DNA of 64,000 nt from Chytridium lagenaria. Lineage: Eukaryota > Chytridiomycota > Chytridiomycetes > Chytridiales > Chytridiaceae. Below, one piece after another: positions 4,295 to 62,061 of this stretch. The notes beneath the pieces were generated by a model. That model was given only the letters and a program-made list of their open reading frames with translations. It made no database searches and was not told where the DNA came from. Location: contig JAHLKC010000008.1 of assembly GCA_025449115.1 (NCBI GenBank), positions 404,388-468,387 of the forward strand. Direction: 5' to 3'. Numbering within the stretch: position 1 is the first letter of the stretch; the number at the start of each line of letters is the position of its first letter. The position numbers were made by a program, and so were the translations under genes.

Positions 4295-7200
4295 ATGTTG
4301 CTGAAAACAAATGATGGGACGACGGCGGTGCAAGATCATGTCTCTGATGAGATGTGGTTTTCAAAGAGCTTGATGAACCCTACCACATTGTATTTTCCTC
4401 CGGCGATGGTAAGGAAATAAGAGGATTTATGTAGCTCATAGAAGCCTCTTTTCTCATTATTCTATTCTCCCTATACAGGAAAGAGTGTTCATTCTTGAGG
4501 TAAGACGTTTCCAACTACTGACAAAGTCTTACCCCTCTTTCCCAGCACATCGGATCCGATGAATCCAGAAGAAACATGCGTGTTAATGCTAGTATTGCAT
4601 TTATATTTTACATATTTGCCGAACTTTTCGGTCTCTACAGCTGGATTACTGGAGACCGCAGTGCTGTGCATACCCTATCAATGATCTTAGAGTTTGTCGC
4701 TTTCATTATCTGTGAAATTCTCGCACTGTGGGTTGTCATCTTCCCAACGCGAACTCAAGAACAATGGAGACAGTGGCATGAAGGGAATGGGTCTATTCAT
4801 TTCAGACGGCCGCAAGTTTGCATTATGGCCATATCAGCGTTGTTCTTATTGAGGTTGGGGTTTGAGGTTGCTTCTTTCTTTTTTTTTTAAATCCTTTTGC
4901 CGTAGGTCCGAGAACATTTTGTATCCAAAGGACTTTGCGGCTTGGCAGGTTTCCACCGCAGGGTTTGTTTTTATTATATTTGCTGCAGCTATTGGGTTGT
5001 CGTTTAAGGTACTTTTGAAAATTTAATGTTGGTGCTGATATTGGATAGTATTATCCGAGCAGTGTTTTTACCTTGGTTCTATTCTGTGTGGTTGTTGTGA
5101 GAGGGATCATTGTTGGAGCTTTGGATAGGAATCGCGATTCACCGGTGCGCTTGTTGGTGTTTTTGACGCCAGCATTGATATCATTATGTAAGTCTACGTT
5201 GCCTGCTTGCTTTATCTTTTGGCCATGCTGGATAGGAATTATACTAAATTGGGGGCCTTGTATTATAGTGGTGAACGGTTGGGCTATGTTTGTGATAGAA
5301 ACAAACTTTAGGACAAAGTATCTTACCAAAAAGAGATTGGAGATTGAAATGCGAAGACTAAAGGACAGGCGTGTCAGTGTCGACTCTATCCTTCAAGTGG
5401 TACTTCCAAAGGTGAAGTTTCGGTCTCCATGCTGTTTCCACCTTCTTATCTCTCCAGTAGGATGTTATAATGCGACTTCAGGAATCGGATTTTCAGTTTT
5501 CCGCCGTCACAGATCGCTTTGAGACGGCTTTTTGCGTGTTTGTGGATTTTTATAGCTCGAAAGAGGAGTTGGATAAGATCAGCCCAGAGAACATGTTGAG
5601 GTTGATTAATCTCACGTTTCGCGACTTTGATATATTGTTGGATAAATTTCAGGATGTGGAAAAAATCAAGGTTTGGCTCTTTCTTTGCCGATAAGCAAAA
5701 GGCTGAAATCGGATTTTGTTTTTTTTAGACTATATCGAGCAAAGCGTTGCTTGTAGCGAAACCGGTTGGAATGGATGCCATTATAATCAATGGGGATGCT
5801 ATCACGAGACTATGTATTGAAACTTTGGAACGCATGAGGGCGCCGGTGCAAATTGAGTTTGATGATGATGGCTATGGTAATGATGTGCAGAAGGTCGGCG
5901 ATGGATGTGCTTCGGTCGCTGGAGAATATAAGGTTACGACCATTTCCAGGAATGTTACGATCGGAATTGCGTTTGGGGAGGTTGTAGCAGGTACGTGTAT
6001 TATGATAAGTTTTGATTTTTTTACGAACGTACGTTTAAGGCATTGTTGGAGTTGACCGATTCGTGTATGACATATATGGCGATGTTGTGAATACTGGTAG
6101 GATATAAAGGACATGGTCGAGTTTCCCCCCTAATTTATCTGTCAGCGAGTCGTATGCAAACGTTGAACGACCCAAAGTCGCATTCTGTGATGTGCACTGC
6201 AGCAGCTTTTTGCTCAGTTTAGCCCCGAAACTCGTAAGCCCCTTAAGTCTGCATATAATTTGATACATATTTAAGGCCAACATTGGTACAGCACTGGCAT
6301 GGTATCCGTGAAAGGGAAGGGAATCATGGAAGTCTATCGTCTCCAAGAAGCTCCTATAAATACCTCACCACTTTTACACTTCCCCGCACTTGATGTGATC
6401 GGAGCCGCGGCACCTCTACTTTCTGTTCTTGATTCACAAAAAAAGGAAAGGATTTCATTTCGTGGGAATCTTCCTGGTGTTGGAGAAGACGCCGTTAGAG
6501 CCATTCTCAACACTTTCCATGGGCATGGTAACCTCTCTACTGTTTTTGATAAATCAAAGACCTGTGCGATGGCTGAGCGTCAGTTGGGGTTCGGGTCTGC
6601 TCTTGGAAGCTGTGAAAGGATCGATAAGGATTGTATGTTTTTATCTAAAACAAAGTCCGAGTTCAAGGCTAGAGAGAATGATCACTTTTCAGATATTTTT
6701 GTCAGTGAATACGGGTCGGGGGACATTAAAATCGATTTTTTCAAGACGCCCGACATCGTATGATACCACGTTCTCTGAGGCTACACATAAGGCTGTTAAA
6801 AGCAAGCGAGCACAGAATGGGTCCTATGGTTACAAAGGGGATCCAGTCCTCACCGTCGACGAGCGATTATCTATGGCACGATCATTCGAGAAACTGGCTA
6901 GTGTCAAGAATTCCTTATTGAGCTTGGCGACACCAGAGATTCCAATGCATTTGGGTACGGCTGGACTTGAGGTCAGGGCATCGGTGTCAACTTTTGAACA
7001 CCCATTTTATGATGAGAGGGATCTTCCGCTTCCACCCAACATTGAGGTGAGCGAGCCCTTATCTCCTGCGGTGGATCTTCGACGAAAATCTATAGCAATA
7101 CGTGAGCTACGGGATTCAACGTCATTAAAGTGGCTCCATGAGGCCTCGAAAGCAAGCTTGGGGAAAGTTTCGGTCGGGGATGAGAAGAGGAGAAGAGGGG

Positions 7201-9274
7201 TTGTTGAGGGAGCTGATATGTTTTCTAATTCTTGGATTCCTCTTTACGTTCTGGATCATTGGCAACATATTGGGAAGTGGTCTCTTTTATTCCTTGATTC
7301 GGATATGAGGGAAAAATACCGTCTGTTTGTGAGGAGTGATGGCGGTGCTTACCTCAAAGCGTTGTTCAGAGAAGGAGCATCAGCTGCAATTATATCAAGT
7401 GGGATTATTACTATTGCCATATTGCATACACTTTTTGCCGACGACGCAGGGAGAATGCCATCATCAGTACGATTGGAATACATTGCGAAAAATACTGTGT
7501 TGCGCCAATATAGTCCCTGGATTGGAATTTACAGCGCTGTAGGCTTTTTCACGGCTCAAATGTTTGTCTGTTGGTTGCAGCATTTTTTGTGTCGGAGGCG
7601 TCTCGACAGAATCATCAGAAGAGTCGCTGATGAAACTCATACAGCTGTAGATACGGCGGCTTTAGGATCTTGGGGAGCTTATTGGCTGAAAATTATCACA
7701 ACGGCAGGAGTGATTATAAGCATTCAACTGACCACCTTTGGCCATGTTTGGTTGTTCCCTCAAGCAGGGATGCAGCTTTTTCTTGCGTTTGTGGCGAACC
7801 TTGAACATCAATACCTTGATTCGGATATGCCCTTTCATTATTTCATGGTGGCGATTGTGGTGATGACTGTAGTGCCGATGACAACTTTATTTTTTCTCAA
7901 GGTTGCTGGAATGGTGGATCTTATTGAGACATTTGCGCTCACAGCTATAGTACTTTCTGGAAAATACAGACATTCATTAGCGAAGAAGACGAGCTTCTTG
8001 TTTCAGCTTACTCTTGTAACGAGTAGGGAGTTGCAGGATCTGGAATCTGCATTCTTCTTTGAGCTTTTGGGCGCAATATTACCGCATAGGGTCATTGAAA
8101 GCATGTTTAGTGACACCAGGAACGAAAGCACGCTGGAACGATTCAAAGGTGAATTAATCGTCTTATTCCTTTAGTAATCAATGTTGCGTTTGACCTCCTA
8201 ATATGCTTGCTAACAATGTAGAACAGGGGTCAGCGTGATCCATTTAGACATCACCTCATTTACCGTCTTATCTGGTTTTTTACGGCCTCATGATGTTATC
8301 AAAATTCTTGTAGGGCTCTCGTTCATTATGCCTTTGGAACTCACACACGCATAGAATACACTCTTTACAAAGTTTGACCGAATCTGCTACGAGCACCAAG
8401 TTGAAAAAATTCTCACGATTGGTGACGCGTACGTAGCCATGCGAGCTCCGGAAAGCTCCAACCCCAAGGCGTTGGAACATAAAAACAATTTCAGAGCAGA
8501 GTACATGCACAAGCAGAAATTAAAACAAGACGCCGAGGCTATTGATGGTTTTGATGTCAAGGTGAACGAGAGACCGAGAGCCTCTTGCCATGTTAACCGT
8601 TCAATCATGGACATGAGCTTTGCAAAGATGACCGATTCTGTTTTAAAAACGACGGAGCAATTGGAATCCATACCTGCTGGCGGGTCTGAGTTCCAGGATT
8701 ACCATTCCGAGGCTGCGGTTGATGCGTGTCATGCTGCGTTGGAAATGCTAGAAGCAGTGGAGAATTTGGCGTCGTCTTGGTCCGAATCTCATGCTGATCC
8801 GTCTGGAAAGCGAGAGGAGGTGAATTTTCAAGGAAGAGCAAATTTAGCAAAGCTCCGCGTGAGAATTGGTATTCACACGGGACCTGCATATGGATGCTTG
8901 ACAGGTATATTTACACAGTTTCTGTTCAACACAGTGTCGTTTTTTGCGTTGTCGGCAACTTATGGTAGTAACCAAGTATTATAGGAGGAAGGAGTAAAAT
9001 TAAATATGAACTTGTTGGCGAGGCAATGGAGATAGCTGAACTTATGGAACAGCAAGCTACACCCGGTACGGTCCGCGTTTCACGAGCAACTATGAATTTG
9101 ATTGTGAAAAAACGCGGGCCATTGAGAACCACTCTACCATCGAACAAATATGATGAGGAACCACCGCATGAGGAGGGAGCAGAAATTGAGTGTCCATCAG
9201 GTCAGGGACTTTCGTTTATTGCAAGAGTGAGTGTAGGATCTGGGGTAAGCTATGAGCTGCGGAGAGATCGGTAG
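4295..9274 (+). CDS. 12-TM class III adenylyl cyclase, paralogue A
   Basis: Integral membrane cyclase predicted to make cAMP from ATP. Order: N-terminal block (MWFSKSL..TLYFPPAMERVF), six TM helices (4570-5280), helix K+RLEIEMRRL, cyclase domain 1 (5470-6325), long linker, six TM helices (7370-7970), helix SRELQDLESAFFFELLGAILP, cyclase domain 2 (8225-9100), tail. Domain 1 shows KIKTISS (adenine Lys), YDIYGDVVNT (adenine Asp, Asn at 6090-6092), ASRM (Arg at 6151-6153) and VKGKG (6308-6322), but Ser replaces the second metal Asp. Domain 2 has both metal Asp (LDITSF, 8247-8249; TIGDAYVAM, 8424-8426) but GEAMEIAELM where VNxASR should be. One composite site per protein follows, with halves swapped relative to animal enzymes. 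Start chosen because the ATG is in frame with the block conserved in paralogues B and C. Exons include a 21-nt microexon (4479-4499). Frame breaks near 6170 and 6740. Over ten GT-AG introns. Confidence 0.88.
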
Positions 9275-9537
9275 GGCTTAAAGCGCCTAGTGTATCCGAG
9301 TCACAACTTAGGACCGAATAGCCCATGAATAAAAGCAAACCTACAGTTTGACCAACAGTATGGTTGGCAAATTGGCTAGTAAAATAATAGGGTAGATGGA
9401 GATTTACCGTTTCAGCGTGTTAGAGCTGGAGTTCAGTCGCGATTAATTATTAGAAAATCCGGATTGCCACTAGTCCATGGATCGCCGCCAATGTCTTGGA
9501 AGTTGGAACGTTCCCTGCTACATGTCAGGGAAAGCGA

Positions 9538-12500
9538 ATGTATAAGCAGGACGATGGCGAAAGCCATGAGGCTGTTTCTGACGAGCAATGGTTCTCCAAT
9601 GACATTATCGACAAGCACACTCTGTATTTTCCCTATGATATGGAGAAGGTGTATACAATGGAGGTAGGCAACTTATGAATTTAAGCTGACTTTAAAGAAT
9701 ATAGGCTCCGATGTAGCCAGAGTAAACCTCAGAAACATTCTCTATATAGGCCTCTGCTATTATATTATTGCAGAAATTTGGACTATTGCTGCCTTTATCA
9801 TTCTTCGAACATCAGCACTTTCGTTTATTCTCCAAGGATGTCTGTTTATTGTTGGACAGATTATTGGTTTCGTTGACATAGGCTGGTTGACAAAAAAGGA
9901 ACAGTGGAAAAGACTGCACACCGCGAGAATGGCTCGATATATCGCCATGCCCCAAGCGTTGGGATATTTGACACTGTGCGTTTACATTTTAAGGTACTTT
10001 AACATACTCATCGATTCCTAAGGAAAAATATCACAGGACCGAGAATTTTACCTATCCCTTTGACTTTTTCCAATGGCAGATCTCGCCGATAGGATTTATC
10101 TACGTTCTGTCGTCAGTTATCATAGGAATATGTGTCAAAGTTCTTTACTTCATAGGTCTTCTACTAATAAGCATAGTTTCTCCCCGCATTGATTGTGACG
10201 GCCATCTTCTTTCTTTTTATAATTCTTCGTGCAGTCATATTGGGTGCTCTGGATACCTGCAAAGATGCCTGGGTGCGCGCCATTGGATACCTTCTTCCAG
10301 GCGCGATCGCATTTTGTAAGCTTTAAACATCTAAAAAGGTAACCTAATTACCCAAGTCGTGAACCATTGGGCCATGTATATCTTGGAGCAAAGGCTACGG
10401 ATAAACTTTATCACAAAGAAGAGATTAGAAATTGAGACGAGGCGATTGCAAGAACGCCAGAAAAGTGTTGAGGCTATTTTAGAGCTTGTTTTACCAAAGG
10501 TTTAGTTTGTTGATTTAGCTCTTAAGTTAATGTAATTCAGGATGTTATCACGAGGATGCAGATACAAAACTATTCGTTCTCCATTGTTGATCGCTTTGAG
10601 TCTGCGTTCTGCGTATTTGTCGACTTTTTTAGCGCTCAAAAGCTCGATTTGATAGAGCCCTATGCTTGCATCAAAGCGTTGAATGCCACTTTTATGAGTC
10701 TTGATCTTCTCCTTCAAGAATATCCCACGATTGAAAAGATAAAGGTGATAAATATATCTTTTGTATTGTTTGCATCCACTAAACATTCTAATTCTGTCTT
10801 TACGTTGAAGACTATATCGAGCAAAGGTCTTCTAATAAGTACACCATCTGGACCTGATGAGATGATAGTGTACTCGGACGCTGTTACGTCTTTCTGCTTT
10901 GAACTTTTTCGTAAACTTAACGGAGACAGCTTCAATGAATTACCGGAACTATTGAAAAGATCAGTTACTATAGGAGTCGCCTTTGGAGAAATCGTTGCAG
11001 GTTGGTGTCCACCGCACATGATTATTTTTAATACGATACAACAGGATTAGTTGGGGAGAGGCGATTTTGTTACGATGTCTATGGAGACATTGTAAACACA
11101 GGTGAATAGCTTTGAGAAAAGTAGTCCCCGCTTTCTGACGTACATCGCGTATATGCAGCCAGTCGAATGCAGACCTTGGGTTTACTTCATCCGATTCTTT
11201 GTACCGAGGATACCTTTTCACAATTTTCGTCTACAACACGTAAGATTATTAGCAACAACATACTATTTGGGCATCTGACGCCATCTTTAGAAATGAAGTG
11301 GAGGAGCTGTGGCATCCACTCAGTAAAAGGCAAAGGAGACATGCTCATATATCGAGCTGCTTCCGAAGCTGACGATAAAAAAGAGGCTACTGGCAACTTA
11401 GCAGACTCTTTGAGTAGACTCGGAGTAGATTCTAGGTCAAAGGAGGATAGGAAGCCAAGCTATATTGACGTCGGAGATGACGCGATACGGTCAATTCTGA
11501 TTTCTTTCAAAAAGCAACACGAACCTATATCTCCCGTTTCGCCTTCCGAAAGGCACGCCAACTTAGGTAACATCAAAGCGATACCTAGTCAAGATCGAGC
11601 ACAAAGACTGGTTGAGCGACGAGTGACGTTACAGAAGCTCCAAAAATTAAGTGTGTCGGGAAACGACACATCTTTTCCCGACACATCTAAACTGCAACCG
11701 TTTTCGCTCACAGACATTGGCAGAAACCAAAAGACCTTGAAAATGCGTGAGGTGGAAAATCCAAAGAAGCGGTCGATACCTATTCTTGATTATTTCATTG
11801 AGTATTCGAATCACTGGAATCATATTGATCGTTTTTCGCTCAAGTTCTTTGAATTAAAAAACCGAGAAGAATATCGAAATGGGGTTCGGCAGAATGTAAA
11901 ATCGACTACGGACTGTTTTTCAAGAAGGCTGTTGCGCAACTGTGATATCTGTCAGCTGCATTTTAATGGCAACTATTTACGCCATCTTCATAGACCCTGA
12001 TCGCGTGTCCACCAAGATCACAGCTCGGGAAGATATCTTCTCAAAAAAGGGACGATTTCCGGACCACCCTTGGATTGGTATCGCTGTGTTGCATGCGGCG
12101 GGTTTATTCTGCTATTATCGGCATCCGTCTTTCACTTTTTCCAACTAAGAAGATCGCTGCAAATCAATGAAGACAAAAACGGCGTAAAGGGATCTACTTT
12201 TCGGTATACGCTTGCTATGTATTGTTTGAAGATTCTATCCGCCTACACTACGATACTTGGCGTGCAGATCACAGCTTATGGGCAGACTTACCTCTCCGCT
12301 CAAGGGTTGACGTGCCTGTTCCTGTCCTATGCTGCAGGACTGGATTACGATGATATTGAGCCTGAGCTTTCGTTTACTGTTGTAGCCATGTTTCTCAGCA
12401 TACTCACTCTAGGCACAAACGCGTTGTGGGTTTATGCACGAGTCGCTGCTTTGACGGACCTGCTTCAAATTTTCAGTCTTTTAACGATCGTGTTGGTGGG

Positions 12501-13792
12501 AAAATACCGATATGCTGTAGCGAAACGAATGAACTTGCTCTTAAATCTTAAATTAAAAGCGAGTCAAGAACTACAGGATATTGAATCAGCTTTCTTTTTC
12601 GAGCTTTTGGAGGCTATTCTTCCTTCCAGACTCACGCAGAATATGCTAGAGAATCCTATTTCATTTGGAAGGCTGTATTTGGAGCTCTTCGAGAGTAAGC
12701 TTCATCCGTTGTTGTTCTTGCATTTTCCTTTGTTTGTTACCTTTATTTTGTTACATTTGTTAAATCTAACTGTGTATTCAAGCTGTTACTGTAATTCACT
12801 TGGACATAACATCGTTCACCGTAATGTCCAGCAACATGCCGCCATCCGACCTTGTAGACCTTTTGGTAAGCTCTACGTATTATATATATTCCTTCTTCTA
12901 GCACTCGAACTAATCAGATTTTTACATAGAATATGCTGTTCACACGGTTTGATAAAATATGTCAAGGCCACAACGTGGAAAAAATACTTACCATCGGTGA
13001 CGCTTACGTTGCTATGCGCATGCCCAAATCTTTTAAAGGATCAAGGACACGCCATCTTGAGGGTCATCAAAAAATTCACCCTTCCCAAGGGCCAACCTCT
13101 GCTGGAGAACATCTCCACTACACGTCACAAAACGCCTCTGATGGTCCGAACCAAAGAAGCGAGAACCCGGGCGGAAATTCTACAGAGACAGTGAAGTGGG
13201 ACGAGAATGCTGAAGCTGCTATGGAGGCTTGCATTGCTGCTGTTGAGATGCAGGAGGCTCTTAAATCTATGATCATGACATGGTCTGAGGAGAGACCAGA
13301 AAGCGGGATCAACTCTGACCAAATAGGTAAACTTCGCGCTAGGATTGGTATACACACGGGACCTGCCTTTGGATGCTTAACAGGTGAAGTTTCGAGATAC
13401 TCGCGTTTAAGTTAACACTGTGTAGGTGGAGCTACAAAGATAAAGTACGAGCTTATGGGAGAGGCTATGGAAGTTTCTGAGCAGATTGAACGGATGGCAG
13501 AACCAGGAACAGTTCGATCATCCCTATCGACCATGTACCATGTTTTTCAAGGAATGGGACTTTTTTTGAATGAAATCATGGGATGGGAATGTCTACAAGC
13601 ATCTACATCATTCAAGGACGGCCAGGAGCTCATTTCTCAAAGGGAATTTCTTTCATCGCCCGACGCCCAAAAGGTCATCTTTCCACAGATAAACCTTGTT
13701 CTGTTCAAACTCATCCAGAGCCCAATACGGCAGTAATGGGTGCTGGCACCCATACATTATTCCTGTCCTTTGAAATAAAGAAGACGAAATGA
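9538..13792 (+). CDS. 12-TM class III adenylyl cyclase, paralogue B
   Basis: Same architecture as its upstream neighbour, 263 nt away on the same strand. N-terminal block EQWFSNDIIDKHTLYFPYDMEKVY; first TM bundle 9715-10340; domain 1 with EKIKTISSKGLL (10731, 10811), YDVYGDIVNT (about 11071-11100), ASRMQTLG (11160) and SVKGKGDM (about 11320); second TM bundle about 11940-12510; domain 2 with LDITSF (Asp 12803-12805), TIGDAYVAM (about 12992) and GEAMEVSEQI replacing the Asn/Arg motif. Domain 1 therefore supplies adenine-binding and transition-state residues, and domain 2 the metals. The ATG at 9538 aligns with the start of paralogue C. Frame breaks near 11890-11945, 12080-12110 and 13570 interrupt an otherwise well conserved protein; the end at 13792 is chosen because KGISFIARRPKG matches the tails of A (GLSFIARV) and C (GLAFVTRR). 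Either assembly indels or early decay; the first seems likelier. Confidence 0.82.
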
Positions 13793-13914
13793 GGTTATGA
13801 TCAACCAGGATTGGTTTTCAAAGGGTTTACCATCTCGGAAATCTTCAAGATCACCAGTGCCTCTGAAGAAAGTTGTAGGTTGATGCGCCTTGGGTACTCG
13901 GCAAACTGTAACAG

Positions 13915-16900
13915 ATGTACCGACCCCATGTTTCTTTACGAAAAATGAGTGAGGAAGTCGGCGACCTGCATGATAAAATATCCGAGGAGCTGTGGTTCTC
14001 GGATGATATTATTGATAGACATACCCTATACTTCCCAGCTACTATGGAAAGAATCTTTACGAGAGAGGTATGGTGGTCGCTTACTGTGGCCAAAGTTGAC
14101 GGTGTCTAGCATATTGGGTCAGAGGATTCGCAGCTTATATTGAGGAATGTCTTGTGTGTTGGGTTGGTTTATTATGCCATATCAGAAGCAGTGTCCACGA
14201 CAACGTTTTTAAGGGAGAAGAATACCAGTAACAGTATACCATCATATGTTCTGCAAGCGTTTATCTTCATCGTCACTGAAGTCGTGGGGTTCTGGAACCT
14301 CAAGCACTGTATCTTAAATTCCGAACGGTGGCGGCGGTTGCATTTAAGGGAAAGCGCGAATTATGTTCCTGTACCTCAGGGGATTGCTTATCTAAATCTC
14401 TTTGTCTATGCCTTTCGGTAAGAGCGGGAGTATTTTTTTCTGCGACTGATAGATGCGAAAGGAACGAGAATTATTGCTATATGGAGGAGTTTATGACGTG
14501 GCAGGTGGGGATTTTTTTCGCACGGGGAGTTAGGCTGATCATGAATTCGCTAGGTCTCCTCCATAGGATTTATTTATGTTCTTTCAGCCGCGATCATGGG
14601 ACTTGCTTTCAAGGTGACTATATCACTTTCCTAGCTTCTTTAACAATAAAAAGTTCCTCCCCGCCGTCTTCATGTCCGCCGCTATCTTCTCCATGGTGGC
14701 ATGGAGATGCGTCGTTCTTTTTGCCGCAGAAGCTAGTCCTGATTATTGGGTTCGATCGTTGAGCTTTATCATGCCCGCGTTTGTGGCATTCAGTATGAGA
14801 GTTCTTGCTTTTCTTCTGTTAACTTTTACCTAAGTTGTGAACCATTGGGCAATGTATGTGATCGAATATAGTTTTCGGAAACGCTTTATCACGAAAAAGA
14901 GACTCGAAATTGAAATGCGGAGACTGCAGGAGCGACATAAGGGGGTGGAAGGGATTTTAGAGTTGATTCTACCGACGGTATGCAATAATCTTAAGCTGGT
15001 TTTTTGCTTTGATGAAATATGAGATAAGGCTTAACGGCATACATTTGGTTTTAATAGGATGTCATTGGAAGACTTCAAGCCTCCAATTACAACTTCTCAG
15101 CTGTTGTCGACCGGTTCGAGACAGCCTTCTCTATCTTCATCGAATTCATCTCTAAAAAGGAGTTAGATTCGATGAAGCCCGAAGAAGCACTTCGGTGTTT
15201 GAACGTGTTTTTCAAGGGACTTGATTCCATATTGCAAGATTTTCCTGAAGTAGAAAAGATCAAGGTATTTTTTACTGGAGGAGGGCTTATTTTAATGAAG
15301 CAATTTTGTTAGACTATATCGAGTAAAGCGTTGCTGATTAGTTGCCCAAAAGGGGATGAAGAGGTCAAGAGACATGGGGATGCGATTACAAAGCTATGTT
15401 TTGAAGGCGATTGAGAGGTCGTTGCAGATGAGGAGGAATATCTCGGTGGGGATAGCTTTTGGCGAGATTGTTGCAGGTATGGATCTAGCGCGTGGTTTCA
15501 TGATACTTGTGATGTTTTCTTAAAAAATTTATCGTCTCATGATTTTTTACAGGAATTGTTGGAGTCCAACGCTTCTGTTACGATGTGTACGGCGATGTTG
15601 TAAAATACTTGTTAGTACCGGTTTTGGGGTTTTTTGAAACTATTTTGCTTTCGTATAAACTTACAATTCCATGTACAGCGAGTCGAATGCAAACATTAGG
15701 GATTCGACAATTTGCTCTCTGCACGGGCGAAGCATACCGTCAATTTTCCAAAGATACTCGTAAGCATATTCCTTAGCCTTAAAACCTAAGAAACTCTGCT
15801 AGAAACCCAGTGGAGAAGCGCCGGTGTCCACTTCGTCAAAGGCAAAGGCATGATGGAAGTCTACAGCGTCTCTAGTCCAAACAACCGCCGCAACACTGGT
15901 ATCGATCTCTCCTCCTCTGCTGAAACCATGCGCAGTCTCCCCTCATTTCTAGATCTGGAAACGAATGGGGCTCTTGAACCCTTTGACAGGCCTATTGAAA
16001 ATGAAGGCATGTTTGCGCTGAACGGGTCTCTCCCCATTACAAGCACGACGGATATTGATGTAGGGGATGCGGCTGTGCGTGCAGTGTTGACGGCGTTTAA
16101 TCCTGCCAATGGGGTGTTTGGGAGTCGACGGAACAGGATTACGCCTGTATCTGATACGATATCTGCGACGAATTTATCAAAGGCGTCAGTGTCGTTGACG
16201 GATTTTTTGGAGGTGTTTGATACAACGAAACCGGTGACAAAGGCATTTAGCCAGAAAAGGGAGAAGGAGAAATCGGTCTCGTCCATGACGATTGAGGCGG
16301 ATAAGACCGTGTGGCCTAGAAGAACGTCGATGACACCGCCCGGATGGCATAGGAGGACGTCGATGAACCCGACTTGGTTTAAAGTTCCTGGATTTGGGAT
16401 TGTGAAAGATGTGAAGAAACGGAAGGAGGGGGAGAAGAACGCATCTTATGCTGTGATGATGGCTGAGCCCACCATGACCAAGGCGGCGGGGTTTGAGACG
16501 CTCATTGAAGAGTTTTCGGACCCATGGAAGCATATAGGGTGGCTTTCGTTGGTGTTTACAGATCCGGATATTTGGAAACGGTATCGTCGATATCTTCGGA
16601 AAGACGAGGAACATCGATTGAGAACGTTGTTGTTGGAGGGGTGTCAGCGACGCTTATTTCATCCATAACTATTATAGTGGCGTCTCTGTATCTGCGTTAT
16701 GTGAATCACGATCGACCTTCCGATCTTATCAAAGCCCGCACTGGTAAAGTTGCAAGACAAGGATTGTTTGAATCATCGTCTACGGTGGGGATGTGGGTGT
16801 CGATATCGTTTTTTTTCGTGCAGATGGTGATATCGTGGCTGCATTATGGTATCATCCGTCACGCCGTGTCCTTGCATCGACACAAAGGAAAGTCACACCA

Positions 16901-19085
16901 TTAGGAAAACGCAAATACATCACAGGCACGAAATTCTTGAACGGATGGGCCTTGCATTTCATTAAAATCGTTACAGCTTTGGGCGTTCAGATCGGAGTGC
17001 AGGTCACTCCTTACGGCCAAATCTGGTTATCCCAACAAGCCGTTGTATGCCTCTTTCTCTCCTATGCTGCCAACATTGAGTATGATTTTTTGGAACCCGG
17101 GATGCCGTTTTATGCTGTGGCTGCCACGATTGTTGTTTTGACAATGATACCAAACATAGCGTTTTTTATGTGTGGGATGTCGACGATTCAGGATATGATG
17201 AGGATTGTGTGGATGATTACTATTGTGTTGGGGGGAAGTATCGACATGCGCTTGCGAGACGGGGGAATTTTTTGTTGCATATTACGTTGATGAAGAGCAG
17301 GGAGTTGCAGGATTTGGAGTCAGAGTTTATCTTTCAGTTGCTTGGTGCGATTTTGCCGGCGAGAGCGATTGATTATATGTTGATCAATTCGGAATCCGGC
17401 GGGGAAGTCGTATTTGGAGAGTTTTGAATGTGAGTGTTTTTTTTTTTTTTTTTTTTAAAAAAAATATCATGTTATGATTTCTCTTTTGTCAAGCGGTGAG
17501 GTGGAACAGCCTTGGATATAATTGTTGTTTTGTTCACTAATGTTTGTATTTTTTTTAGGCGTCACTGTTATTCATATGGACGTCACTTCATTCACGGTGC
17601 TTTCAAGTATGATGCGACCAGAGGACGTGATCGCTCTTTTGGTCGGTTCATGTTCTAATTATTTTATTTATTTTTGTTTTTTTGTGTTTTGCTTGCATGT
17701 AACTTACCTATGTGCACATATAGAATATTCTCTTTACTCAATTTGACGAGATCTGCAACTCTCACGACGTCGAAAAGATTCTCACCATCGGTGACGCCTA
17801 CGTTGCCATGCGTATCCCGCAATCCAACACTATCAAAATGTCCGAAACCATCCCTGGAACGCGCAACTTACATCCCATAAAATCCATGATACTTCCAACA
17901 AAACGCCGAATCACCTTTCCACAGACCTTTTTAATCTAAAACCCACCTTCACAGCCGCGTTGGATGAAGCGACAAAGTTTGAGACATGCCCGCCTGAGTA
18001 TCATCGACGGGAGAACCTGTTGAATATACCAAAGATGCCGTGGAGTGGGACGACGGGAACGGGGGGGAGACGAAAATCAGCGTCTGATATCATGGTTCCC
18101 ACAGCACAGAAGACGGGACATGAAGAAGGAGGGGAATCGAGCGCACAATCCAGCGACGAGGATTCAGATGGGAAAGTGAATCGAAGGACAAGTTTAGGGC
18201 TGGGTAGTAGTAAAACCCACGTCGAGTTCGCGAGTGTTTCCAACGTCTCAAGGAGGAGAGGCATTGGGCAAGTCTGTGCGTGCTCCTGCGATGGCTGGGA
18301 AAGGGGATGTGAGGATTGGACCGGATTGTGGAAGCTGCTGGGGAGGCTTGTAGAGCTGCGCTGGAGATGCAAGAGGCTGTCAGGAATCTTGTGATGAGTT
18401 GGAGGATTTAGGAGCGAGAGGAAGAGTGGATTTTCCTTTTGTAGCGCAGTTGGCGGGACGGGAAGATGGGAAGGAGGCGTTGGATTTGTTGATGAAGTTG
18501 AAGGTGAGGATTGGGGTGCATTCCGGAACGGCGTTTGGATGTTTGACTGGTGAGTTGTTTTTCTTCTTTGACTTAATTTCGTTTTTACTTTCGTTGAATT
18601 CAACAATAAGACTTTCTAACGAGACGTTTATTTTTTCGGCATTTTTCTTTTCTCAAAGGCGGTACCACAAAAATCAAGTATGAGGTTGTAGGTGAAGCCA
18701 TGGACGTTGCTGAGACCATGGAGCAAAGAGCGACACCAGGAACGTGCGAGTGTCACGCACAACCATGAACTTGATTGTGCAAAGACCGCGGTCCACCCCA
18801 TCTCAACATATTCTCCACTGACAATGCGCCATTAGGTGATCCTATGGAAGACGAAGATGGTACGTTACAGAGGCGCCACCTGAGCAAGGGCTCGCGTTTG
18901 TGACGAGACGGAGTAGTGATGGTTGGGTGTCTTTTGAGTTGAGAACGAGGAGGGAGGAGACGGCAAAGCGTCAACCAACCTCGGAAGTGGTAGGGCGATC
19001 CGAGAGTATATATAGGAAAGAAAGAGACGCTGTACGCGAGGGCAAAGTGATGATGCAGAGGGTGTGTTTCGAGGACCCCAATTGA
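13915..19085 (+). CDS. 12-TM class III adenylyl cyclase, paralogue C
   Basis: Third tandem copy, starting 122 nt after B. N-terminal block SEELWFSDDIIDRHTLYFPATMERIF; first TM bundle about 14140-14830; domain 1 with EKIKTISSKALL (about 15252/15313), RFCYDVYGDVV (about 15573), ASRMQTLG (about 15679) and VKGKGMMEVY (about 15836); linker; second TM bundle 16640-17230; domain 2 with MDVTSF (about 17576), TIGDAYVAMR (about 17785), VRIGVHSGTAFGCLTG and GEAMDVAETM in place of Asn/Arg. The first acidic position of domain 1 is Glu (FIEF) where A and B have Asp. The linker (15850-16500) is long, Ser/Thr-rich and unlike A and B except for the VGDxAxRxxL motif. Frame breaks near 15405, 15605, 16640, 16890, 17232, 18400 and 18750, most at G or A runs. 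The tail (to 19085) is longer and more basic than in A. Confidence 0.82.
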
Positions 19086-60431: not shown

Positions 60432-62061
60432 CTATTGCTTTTCTGATGGCAGTGTGGTCAAGTCTTTGAATCGTCGCATACCAAGGCTGCGGACATGCCG
60501 TTGATGTGCTTCAGTAGGTAAAGACTTCGTTAAGACGTCAGCGACCATGTCTTCTGACCAGCAATAGGCGAGTTCGATGCGGCGTTCATCAATCTTGTCG
60601 TTGACAAATCTGTGTTTCACGTTCATGTGTTTGACACGTTGATGATGCATCGGATTTTTCGCTATAGCAATGGTTGAGTCGTTATCTTGATATATACGGG
60701 ATACACCAGGATGTTGGATTAAGGCTTCATCCATGAGACTTTGATACCATATCATCTCGCGGGTAGCTTCACTGAGTGCAATGAGCTCCGCTTCAGAAGA
60801 TGATTGCGCAACAACCGTTTGCTTCTTGGACTGCCATGAAATGGCGCCGCCACCGAATAACACCACGTAACCGGTACGTGACTTAAAGTCATCTTCACAT
60901 GCGTGACTGGCGTCTGCATAACAAAGAGGTGCTTCTTCTATGTCCAAGATGGCGGTTCTACCTTCAGTGAGTTGTGTCATAGAAGACAACGCCGATTTTG
61001 AGTATAGTATACCATAGTCATGCGTGTCAAGTAAATAACGTAAAACTCGAACTAGTGCAACAAAGTCCCCAGCATTTGGGTTAGCTTGATATTGCCCTAG
61101 TTTACTGACGGTAAATGCCAGATCAGGTCTGGTTTCTGCGCGAGATAGGAAATCTTTTGCAGATTGAACGGAATTGATCGCGTTCGTTTTGCGATAACTC
61201 AGCTGCTGAATCATCGTGACACCAGTTGATGGTCATAGGAGTGGGTTTCGAGGTGATACCCGTATCCCATAATCCACAGGACTCTAATAAATGCTTGATA
61301 TAGAATCGTTGGCAAATAAACGTTCCTTCAACGGTGTGAATAACTTGGATTTTGGTCATCCAGTCAATAGGCCCTTTGGTTCCAACTTTGAATCGCTTGT
61401 CCACTCGATCAATGAAGGCGTGAATAAAGCTTACATTAACAGTAATGATAATGATATCATCCACATAAATGATTACGTGGATAAGAGTATTAGACTCTTT
61501 GTCATATTTGACGAAATGACAGACATCAGCTCTATTGCGCGTAAAACCTTCATCTTTTACAAGCCAAAGACACAGTGTTATGTACCATTCTCGTCCGGAT
61601 TGATGTAAACCATAGATGGCCTGATTCAATCGACAGACAATCATAGCACCGTCAGCTGCGAACTTTTCAAAACCATGTGGCATCACCAAATAATTCAGAT
61701 CGTGGAGAGTTCCAAAGAGGTATGCGCCAGTAATATCTATCTGATAGATAAGAAGGCATAGAATCGCACTCCAGCAAGTGAAAAACCGAATAGTATTAGC
61801 GTTTGCGACAGGCAAAAACACTTCGGTATATTCTTTGCCTGGAATTTGACTGAAACCTCGAGCAACCCAACGGGCCTTATAACGGATAAGGTTACCGTCT
61901 TGATCGAACTTATGATCGAAAACCCATCTTCCATCAATTAGATGAGCACCTTTCGGAAAAGGTACTTCATCCCACGTCCCACGTCGCTTAAGTTCGTTGT
62001 ATTCCTTCAACATTGCGCGTACCAAAATGGTGCTTCATCTGGCCGTGACATAGCTTCTTCA
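60432..62061 (-). CDS. copia reverse transcriptase and RNase H region
   Basis: The RT part (about 62025-61130) reads GRWVFDHKFDQDGNLIRYKA then ARGFSQIPGKEYTE, YQIDITGAYLFGTL, YGLHQSGREWY and the catalytic IIYVDDIIII. The RNase H part (61214-60432) shows CYADASHACEDDFKSRTGYV, WQSKKQTVVAQSSSEAELIA, IYQDNDSTIAIAKNP, HMNVKHRFVNDKI and MVADVLTKSLP, the standard copia RNase H motifs, and ends at 60432. One frame change lies near 61160. RT makes cDNA from element RNA; RNase H removes the template. Confidence 0.85.

Follow-up and report, generated by a model that had tools for sequence, protein, structure and literature searches.

Putative membrane adenylyl cyclases with catalytic halves in reverse order in the chytrid Chytridium lagenaria

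Does it matter which half of a two-part membrane cyclase comes first? The adenylyl cyclase of textbook fungi, Cyr1, which makes cyclic AMP (cAMP), has one catalytic domain in a leucine-rich repeat (LRR)-PP2C-cyclase plan and is without transmembrane (TM) bundles. A 64,000-nucleotide stretch of the chytrid Chytridium lagenaria (contig JAHLKC010000008.1, positions 404,388 to 468,387; hereafter the window) carries, at 4295-19085, a head-to-tail trio of plus-strand genes that do not follow that plan, as they have TM bundles and two cyclase domains, here D1 and D2, between which the catalytic residues are split in a way that Cyr1 does not know. This contrast had been drawn in an earlier reading of the letters alone, the first-pass annotation, and it holds, with the addition that the genome carries a Cyr1-type gene as well. 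The reading favoured here, for which we would put the probability at about four in five, is that each gene encodes one membrane class III cyclase, 6TM-D1-6TM-D2, which would use the mechanism of the animal transmembrane adenylyl cyclases (tmACs) with the halves reversed, cAMP being the likely product. Below, C1 and C2 are the N- and C-terminal catalytic halves of tmACs, and other C-numbers are contigs of the organism's own assembly (42 Mb, 356 contigs), which was the genome searched.

Division of the catalytic residues between two domains

To which half of an animal enzyme does each domain correspond? Three-copy profiles place both among the class III nucleotidyl cyclases when compared with solved structures (E 3e-29 for D1, 5e-30 for D2), tmACs topping the lists for both; PF00211 was above cut-off in the search of the genome (rows on C8) and in two of ten exon scans, and below it in three more. 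Against AC8, D1 of copy 1 scored 31.5 and 21.9 bits for pieces of C2 and 3.4 and 6.2 for pieces of C1 (36 solved sequences matched), and against AC9 the D1 profile gave 75.5 bits for C2 and 27.0 for C1 (40 matched). For D2 the preference is the other one: copy 1 without its insert had 52.8 bits for C1 and 11.5 for C2 of AC9, and the profile 63.5 and 40.4, respectively, with AC8 (43 matched in each case). By these scores D1 is the match of the C2 half of animal tmACs and D2 that of the C1 half, which is in keeping with the first-pass annotation, where a profile alignment with the tmAC halves had been proposed as a check.

How far does the division of residues extend beyond the trio? The genome was searched with PF00211 and with the last 915 residues of copy 1, and D1 and D2 profiles were then run on the retrieved loci. 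Four further loci with D1 upstream of D2 came to light, on C59, C39, C9 and C81, so that the family has at least seven members, a lower bound in that the PF00211 search missed C81 and only the best candidates were scored; protein searches that took D1 of copy 1 and D2 of C59 as queries revealed no locus beyond the seven, the former missing C59 and the latter recovering all of them. The residue table was drawn from a single 22-domain alignment in which no row was discarded, with four of the seven paralogues read from exon pieces that have frame breaks of their own, and with labels that follow the tmAC residue numbers. D1 has the base-recognising Lys, the transition-state Arg and the Lys of VKGKG in all seven, the Asn in all six that can be read (in copy 3 it is unreadable because a frame break falls there) and the base-recognising Asp in six, C9 having Glu. 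The second metal Asp is absent from every D1, its place being taken by Ser in six and Thr in one, and the first metal position is Asp in five and Glu in two (D, D and E in window copies 1, 2 and 3). In D2 all seven keep both metal Asp and the phosphate-binding Arg; the base Lys is lacking in the six readable, the base Asp occurs only in C9, the Asn nowhere and the transition-state Arg only in C39. The tmAC order, with the metal Asp N-terminal and the base residues and Asn/Arg C-terminal, is reversed in 7/7. A rhodopsin-linked guanylyl cyclase of the same genome (C20) has its metal Asp, Asn and Arg all in one domain.

The complementary losses and inverted order that the first-pass annotation saw in three copies are thus borne out in seven, together with the residues for the one composite site it proposed, and the contrary patterns it had listed, D2 with Asn/Arg or D1 with both metal Asp, were not encountered beyond the single Arg of C39. 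Its D2 motifs, including GEAM in the place of Asn/Arg, were confirmed. Its D1 residues are there too, the unreadable Asn of copy 3 apart, though it had overlooked the acidic residue of the first metal site; the loss, to Ser, concerns the second metal Asp only. The paralogous domains are 27-66% identical and the split has been held over that divergence; since the seven are related, they do not count as seven independent events.

What would such a division mean for catalysis? That the Lys of VKGKG has a role at such sites is familiar. With roles assigned to the metal Asp, the Asn, both Arg and the Lys/Asp pair as in PMC6592433, D1 would contribute the Lys and Asp that recognise the base, the Asn and Arg for the transition state, and the VKGKG Lys, and D2 the Asp pair that binds metal and the Arg that binds phosphate. 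A D1-D1 pair would be without the second metal Asp and a D2-D2 pair without the Asn, and so only D1 with D2 gives the full site. We infer an active dimer whose geometry would bring D1 and D2 into a single composite site, with the tmAC mechanism operating through halves in reverse order.

The membrane part was followed with a hydropathy scan at one cut-off. The first-pass annotation gave 6TM-cyclase-6TM-cyclase for all three proteins. Copy 1 has six peaks ahead of D1 (residues 62-235; bundle and signalling helix into D1 at 4546-5411, plus strand) and six between residues 853 and 1044 ahead of D2 (bundle and signalling helix at 7380-8148, plus strand); copy 2 has five ahead of each domain and copy 3 five ahead of D1, its scan covering the first bundle. 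The count of six and six is well backed in copy 1, and for the other two the number of helices rests on homology. Because peaks also fall in cyclase strands (348, 418 and 1108 in copy 1) the method is rough, topology beyond the peaks is presumptive, and an isolated peak just after D1 (515-533) we do not count as a TM helix. With D1 before D2 at seven loci, and a single chain suggested by the reading frames and trees considered below, the overall plan would be that of tmACs. A Pfam scan of the TM exons gave no family above cut-off. The exons for TM1-3 (4546-4853, 9698-9993 and 14110-14417) are 20-38% identical among the copies, as against 50-74% for the catalytic exons compared, and it is a guess that this faster divergence of the bundles fits different inputs to the same output.

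Several findings weigh against this picture. With AC5 the D2 profile scored 49.7 bits for C1 and 43.6 for C2, a weak preference. The Glu of C9 in D1 and the Arg of C39 in D2 are exceptions to the split. With its first-metal acid kept, D1 has not degenerated as far as an animal C2; that acid aligns gap-free with the metal Asp of the adenylate cyclase 5o5k (for copy 1) and in the family alignment, and HMMER shifts the stretch relative to the tmAC C2 half, the alignment there not being unique. The phosphate Arg position of D1 reads T, T, S, R, K, G and R across the paralogues, i.e., Arg in two and Lys in one, so that the halves do not divide this residue between them. The second TM bundle of copy 1, when folded alone from a single sequence, gave a worthless model (mean predicted local distance difference test, pLDDT, 38). 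Lastly, the reading frame is broken in all three copies.

Frame breaks and the question of decay

Are the three, then, genes or remains of genes? Breaks were placed at two, two and 11 sites in copies 1, 2 and 3. That the three tandem genes stem from a bipartite cyclase which was once active, and are now decaying as pseudogenes, is unlikely, but it is the likeliest of the alternatives. In its favour, copy 3 is far worse than its neighbours and uniform assembly error does not explain this; with its excess of breaks, copy 3 could be a recent pseudogene. However, single-base indels of the same kind are present where decay would not be looked for. The HSP70 haplotigs C47:202001-206000 and C250:24501-28500 are 98.9% identical over 4 kb with many single-base indels, seven single-base gaps falling in the span of the gene and four of these, judged by position, in or at the edge of the HSP70-matching stretches. 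It is improbable that a natural HSP70 gene would be so disrupted, and because of this the breaks are best read as assembly errors; two haplotig pairs of the assembly were compared and both have many single-base gaps. A second copy of the window locus, sought in the assembly as a check on the breaks, was not found. Nine of the 15 placed breaks touch a run of at least four equal bases, compared with 18% of random positions, a weak association because the site of a break within an overlap was the analyst's choice.

Codon positions also speak against decay. Identity among the copies at positions 1, 2 and 3 is 0.60, 0.71 and 0.35 (868 codon pairs from six exon stretches, comprising 16 of 18 possible comparisons, since a break made us omit the final D2 exon of copy 3), and with position 3 at 0.35 but position 2 at 0.71, purifying selection has acted on the proteins long after duplication. 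Wherever the catalytic motifs can be read, they are intact. More generally, the assembly looks unpolished and breaks in this genome need a check before any pseudogene is called.

Substrate, relatives and descent

Is cAMP the product? The Lys/Asp pair of D1 (6/7) makes ATP the likely substrate and, therefore, cAMP the predicted product. A guanylyl cyclase, like an inverted protist enzyme already in print, or an enzyme of mixed specificity, is a somewhat less probable alternative again than decay, and the protist enzyme is one reason for entertaining it. Where PMC6592433 deals with the Toxoplasma ATPaseP-GC, a protein that makes cyclic GMP, the order is inverted relative to tmACs: the first cyclase domain (GC1) has the nucleotide and transition-state residues, with one metal Asp replaced by Glu, and the second (GC2) has the two metal Asp, with Leu in place of Asn and Met in place of Arg. 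Set beside that description, the residue table reveals the same inverted order of complementary halves, with base and transition-state residues plus a metal-site acid in the first domain and both metal Asp in the second. The Toxoplasma protein as there described differs in picking GTP (Glu/Ala), in having an N-terminal ATPase-like half absent here, and in lineage. In the model of copy 1 about 60 residues precede the first TM peak, and the gaps between copies are of 263 and 178 bases, though no genome search with an ATPase model was made; two frames upstream of copy 1 had no Pfam match. Several guanylyl-type cyclase stretches in the genome, and the Glu of C9 in place of the base Asp, also favour guanylyl activity. 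Yet the guanylyl base pair, Glu with Cys or Ala, is in none of the D1 domains: six have Lys/Asp, the ATP pair in the scheme of PMC6592433, and one has Lys/Glu, in contrast to the Glu/Cys or Glu/Ala of guanylyl cyclases, among them the organism's own rhodopsin cyclase with Glu/Cys.

The first-pass annotation knew of no such family in fungi. The inverted order itself cannot be called unprecedented, given the Toxoplasma description, and because PMC6592433 sets out both mechanism and inversion, these are known in kind. Its comparative remarks extend the ATPaseP-GC topology to ciliates and mention for Dictyostelium a similar protein with 'two GC domains' and without the ATPase region. As far as a limited literature check reached, novelty lies in the host, which is a fungus, in the adenylyl signature and in the expansion of the family alongside a Cyr1-type gene. 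Ciliate and Dictyostelium enzymes, too, have the inverted order.

Would the composite site function? An inactive cyclase pair acting as receptor or scaffold, or one whose site needs a further subunit for its completion, is less probable still. D1 of the window copies lacks the GFT-type motif that follows the first metal Asp and, according to PMC6592433, attempts to obtain activity from recombinant TgATPaseP-GC domains were futile; against this, the residues for one tmAC-type site are present just once across D1 and D2 and are kept in the seven paralogues, the exceptions in C39 and C9 aside. The weakest alternative, that the two bundles belong to separate genes and D1 and D2 are not one chain, is very improbable, as the frame of copy 1 is open from the last D1 exon via the linker and second bundle to the border before D2, bar one break at a T-run, D1 precedes D2 at 7/7 loci, and the trees of the two domains match.

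That match is close. D1 domains form one group (support 100/99) and D2 domains another (100/100); within both, C9 splits off first and the window trio stays together (94/95 for D1, 100/99 for D2). Pairwise identities of D1 and D2 are correlated (Mantel r 0.88, with 4 of 5040 permutations as high, identity included), as is to be expected if both travel in one gene. The same order at seven loci and the matching trees speak for D1 and D2 being parts of one gene.

Where did the two domains come from? The first-pass annotation spoke of swapped catalytic halves; a swap within an animal-type enzyme is one of two possible histories, the tree fitting descent of D1 and D2 from C2 and C1 or a separate duplication alike. 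In the best tree D2 joins C1 with support 50/0, and the constrained trees gave approximately unbiased test values (p-AU) of 0.26 for D1 with C2, 0.39 for D1 with D2, 0.099 for D1 with C1, 0.33 for D2 with C2 and 0.38 for C1 with C2, neither of the first two groupings being rejected. Descent of D1 from animal C2 was accordingly dropped, the tree being undecided; an intron position shared by D1 and D2 was dropped as a sign of common origin when alignment reading put the two sites three residues apart. If D1 and D2 arose by a duplication of their own, a cyclase has been split into complementary halves at least twice, with opposite outcomes.

How do the proteins otherwise compare with cyclases already known? 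With the animal tmACs (AC5, AC8 and AC9) they share the 6TM-cyclase-6TM-cyclase plan and, putatively, one composite site with Lys/Asp, Asn/Arg and two metal Asp. Unlike those, they have the halves in the opposite order and a fungal host; the first metal site, an acid in D1, is Ser in each of the three C2 rows, and the D2 spacer from GDAYVAM to the next helix (65 residues in copy 2, 89 in copy 1 and about 172 in copy 3) is far longer than in C1 of the animal enzymes. Mycobacterial 6TM adenylyl cyclases (Rv1625c/Cya type) consist of a single 6TM-cyclase unit that homodimerises; the unit is alike, whereas in the residue table all the residues are in one domain. Mean identity of D1 to 5o5k, 0.335 over a partial row, is the highest for eight references, and 5o5k we take to be mycobacterial, the structure list saying only 'Adenylate cyclase'. 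The heterodimeric rhodopsin-guanylyl cyclase of chytrids (RGC1/NeoR), as outlined in PMC12264004, also joins a membrane part to a two-domain cyclase with one working site, but it involves two separate genes, a rhodopsin membrane part and the guanylyl signature Glu/Cys.

Is the membrane family a replacement for Cyr1? On C7 (4226-8103) LRR (E 3e-18), PP2C (1e-14) and cyclase (2e-11) stretches follow in the order of a Cyr1-type gene, and because of it the membrane family is an addition and not a substitute. PF08509, the G-alpha-binding part of Cyr1, had no match, its control being equally silent, and nothing was concluded from it. A wider proposal, for which the sequences make a tentative case at somewhat under even odds, is that reverse-order membrane adenylyl cyclases arose in a fungal lineage, or were retained there from an early eukaryote, and expanded to at least seven genes whose fast-changing membrane parts may form a cAMP sensor array beside Cyr1. 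If true, fungi would have in this seven-gene tmAC-like family a second and possibly receptor-like way of making cAMP, and the family would serve as a natural experiment on the importance of the order of cyclase halves. Seven divergent copies that keep nearly the same split thereby offer a sequence test of which residues are key in each half, the first-metal acid of D1 included.

Gene models and other cyclases of the genome

The exons of the trio were joined by visual inspection at GT-AG borders whose positions correspond among copies 1, 2 and 3, and we infer the splice joins from these; the motifs named in the first-pass annotation lie in exons so bordered, on the plus strand and where it had placed them. 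By model ends, copies 1 and 2 are 263 bases apart and copies 2 and 3 178. Each gene opens with a brief N-terminal segment, after which come the first TM bundle and a helical lead-in that ends in LP, then D1, a linker, the second TM bundle with its lead-in, and D2; from VKGKG to the next TM peak the linker is about 350 residues in copy 1 and about 200 in copy 2.

Copy 1 (4295-9274), modelled as a chain of open-frame exons with GT-AG borders, would after splicing encode about 1414 residues from a presumed start codon, with breaks placed near 6210 and 6740. Its C2-like D1 (5461-6347), recognised by phmmer to the AC8 C2 half and by the residue table, has EKIKTISS, YDIYGDVVNTASRM and VKGKG, with an acid at the first metal site and Ser at the second. 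The C1-like D2 with its insert and the C-terminus (8227-9274), recognised by phmmer to the C1 half of AC9 and AC8, has HLDITSF and TIGDAYVAM, and GEAMEIAELM where Asn/Arg would stand. The exon chain of copy 2 (9538-13736, 3′ end uncertain) has breaks placed near 11900 and 12106; D1 (10541-11360) and D2 (12783-13560) come from the three-copy alignments and the residue table, and the second bundle with its signalling helix (11905-12694) from hydropathy and homology to copy 1. Copy 3 (13915-19085), with its 11 breaks, was assembled by three-frame reading and has an extra intron at 14505-14553. Its D1 (15058-15870, three-copy alignment) has Glu at the first metal site and a break near 15602; the second bundle and signalling helix (16640-17429, three-frame reading) and D2 (17559-18800, three-copy alignment) each run through several frames. 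All of these features are on the plus strand.

The genome has chitin synthases and G-alpha genes. Rhodopsin-like stretches stand beside guanylyl cyclase stretches at C246:2913-4608, on C20 and on C82; these are candidates for the rhodopsin-guanylyl cyclase fusion described for zoosporic fungi in PMC4046227 and PMC12264004, and C246 and C20, being 97.2% identical, look like two haplotypes. Further class III cyclase clusters with guanylyl-type motifs are at C19:6766-14100 (KLETIGDAY) and C19:104257-112079 (YCLFGDTVNTASRM). A bacterial-looking class III cyclase adjoins FHA matches at C44:214445-216292 and at C292:6723-8538, probably again haplotypes. Within the window, Pfam on seven other frames gave a single match above cut-off, to the remains of a Copia-type retrotransposon (RVT_2, E 6e-49) that occupy two overlapping frames at 60432-62034 on the minus strand.

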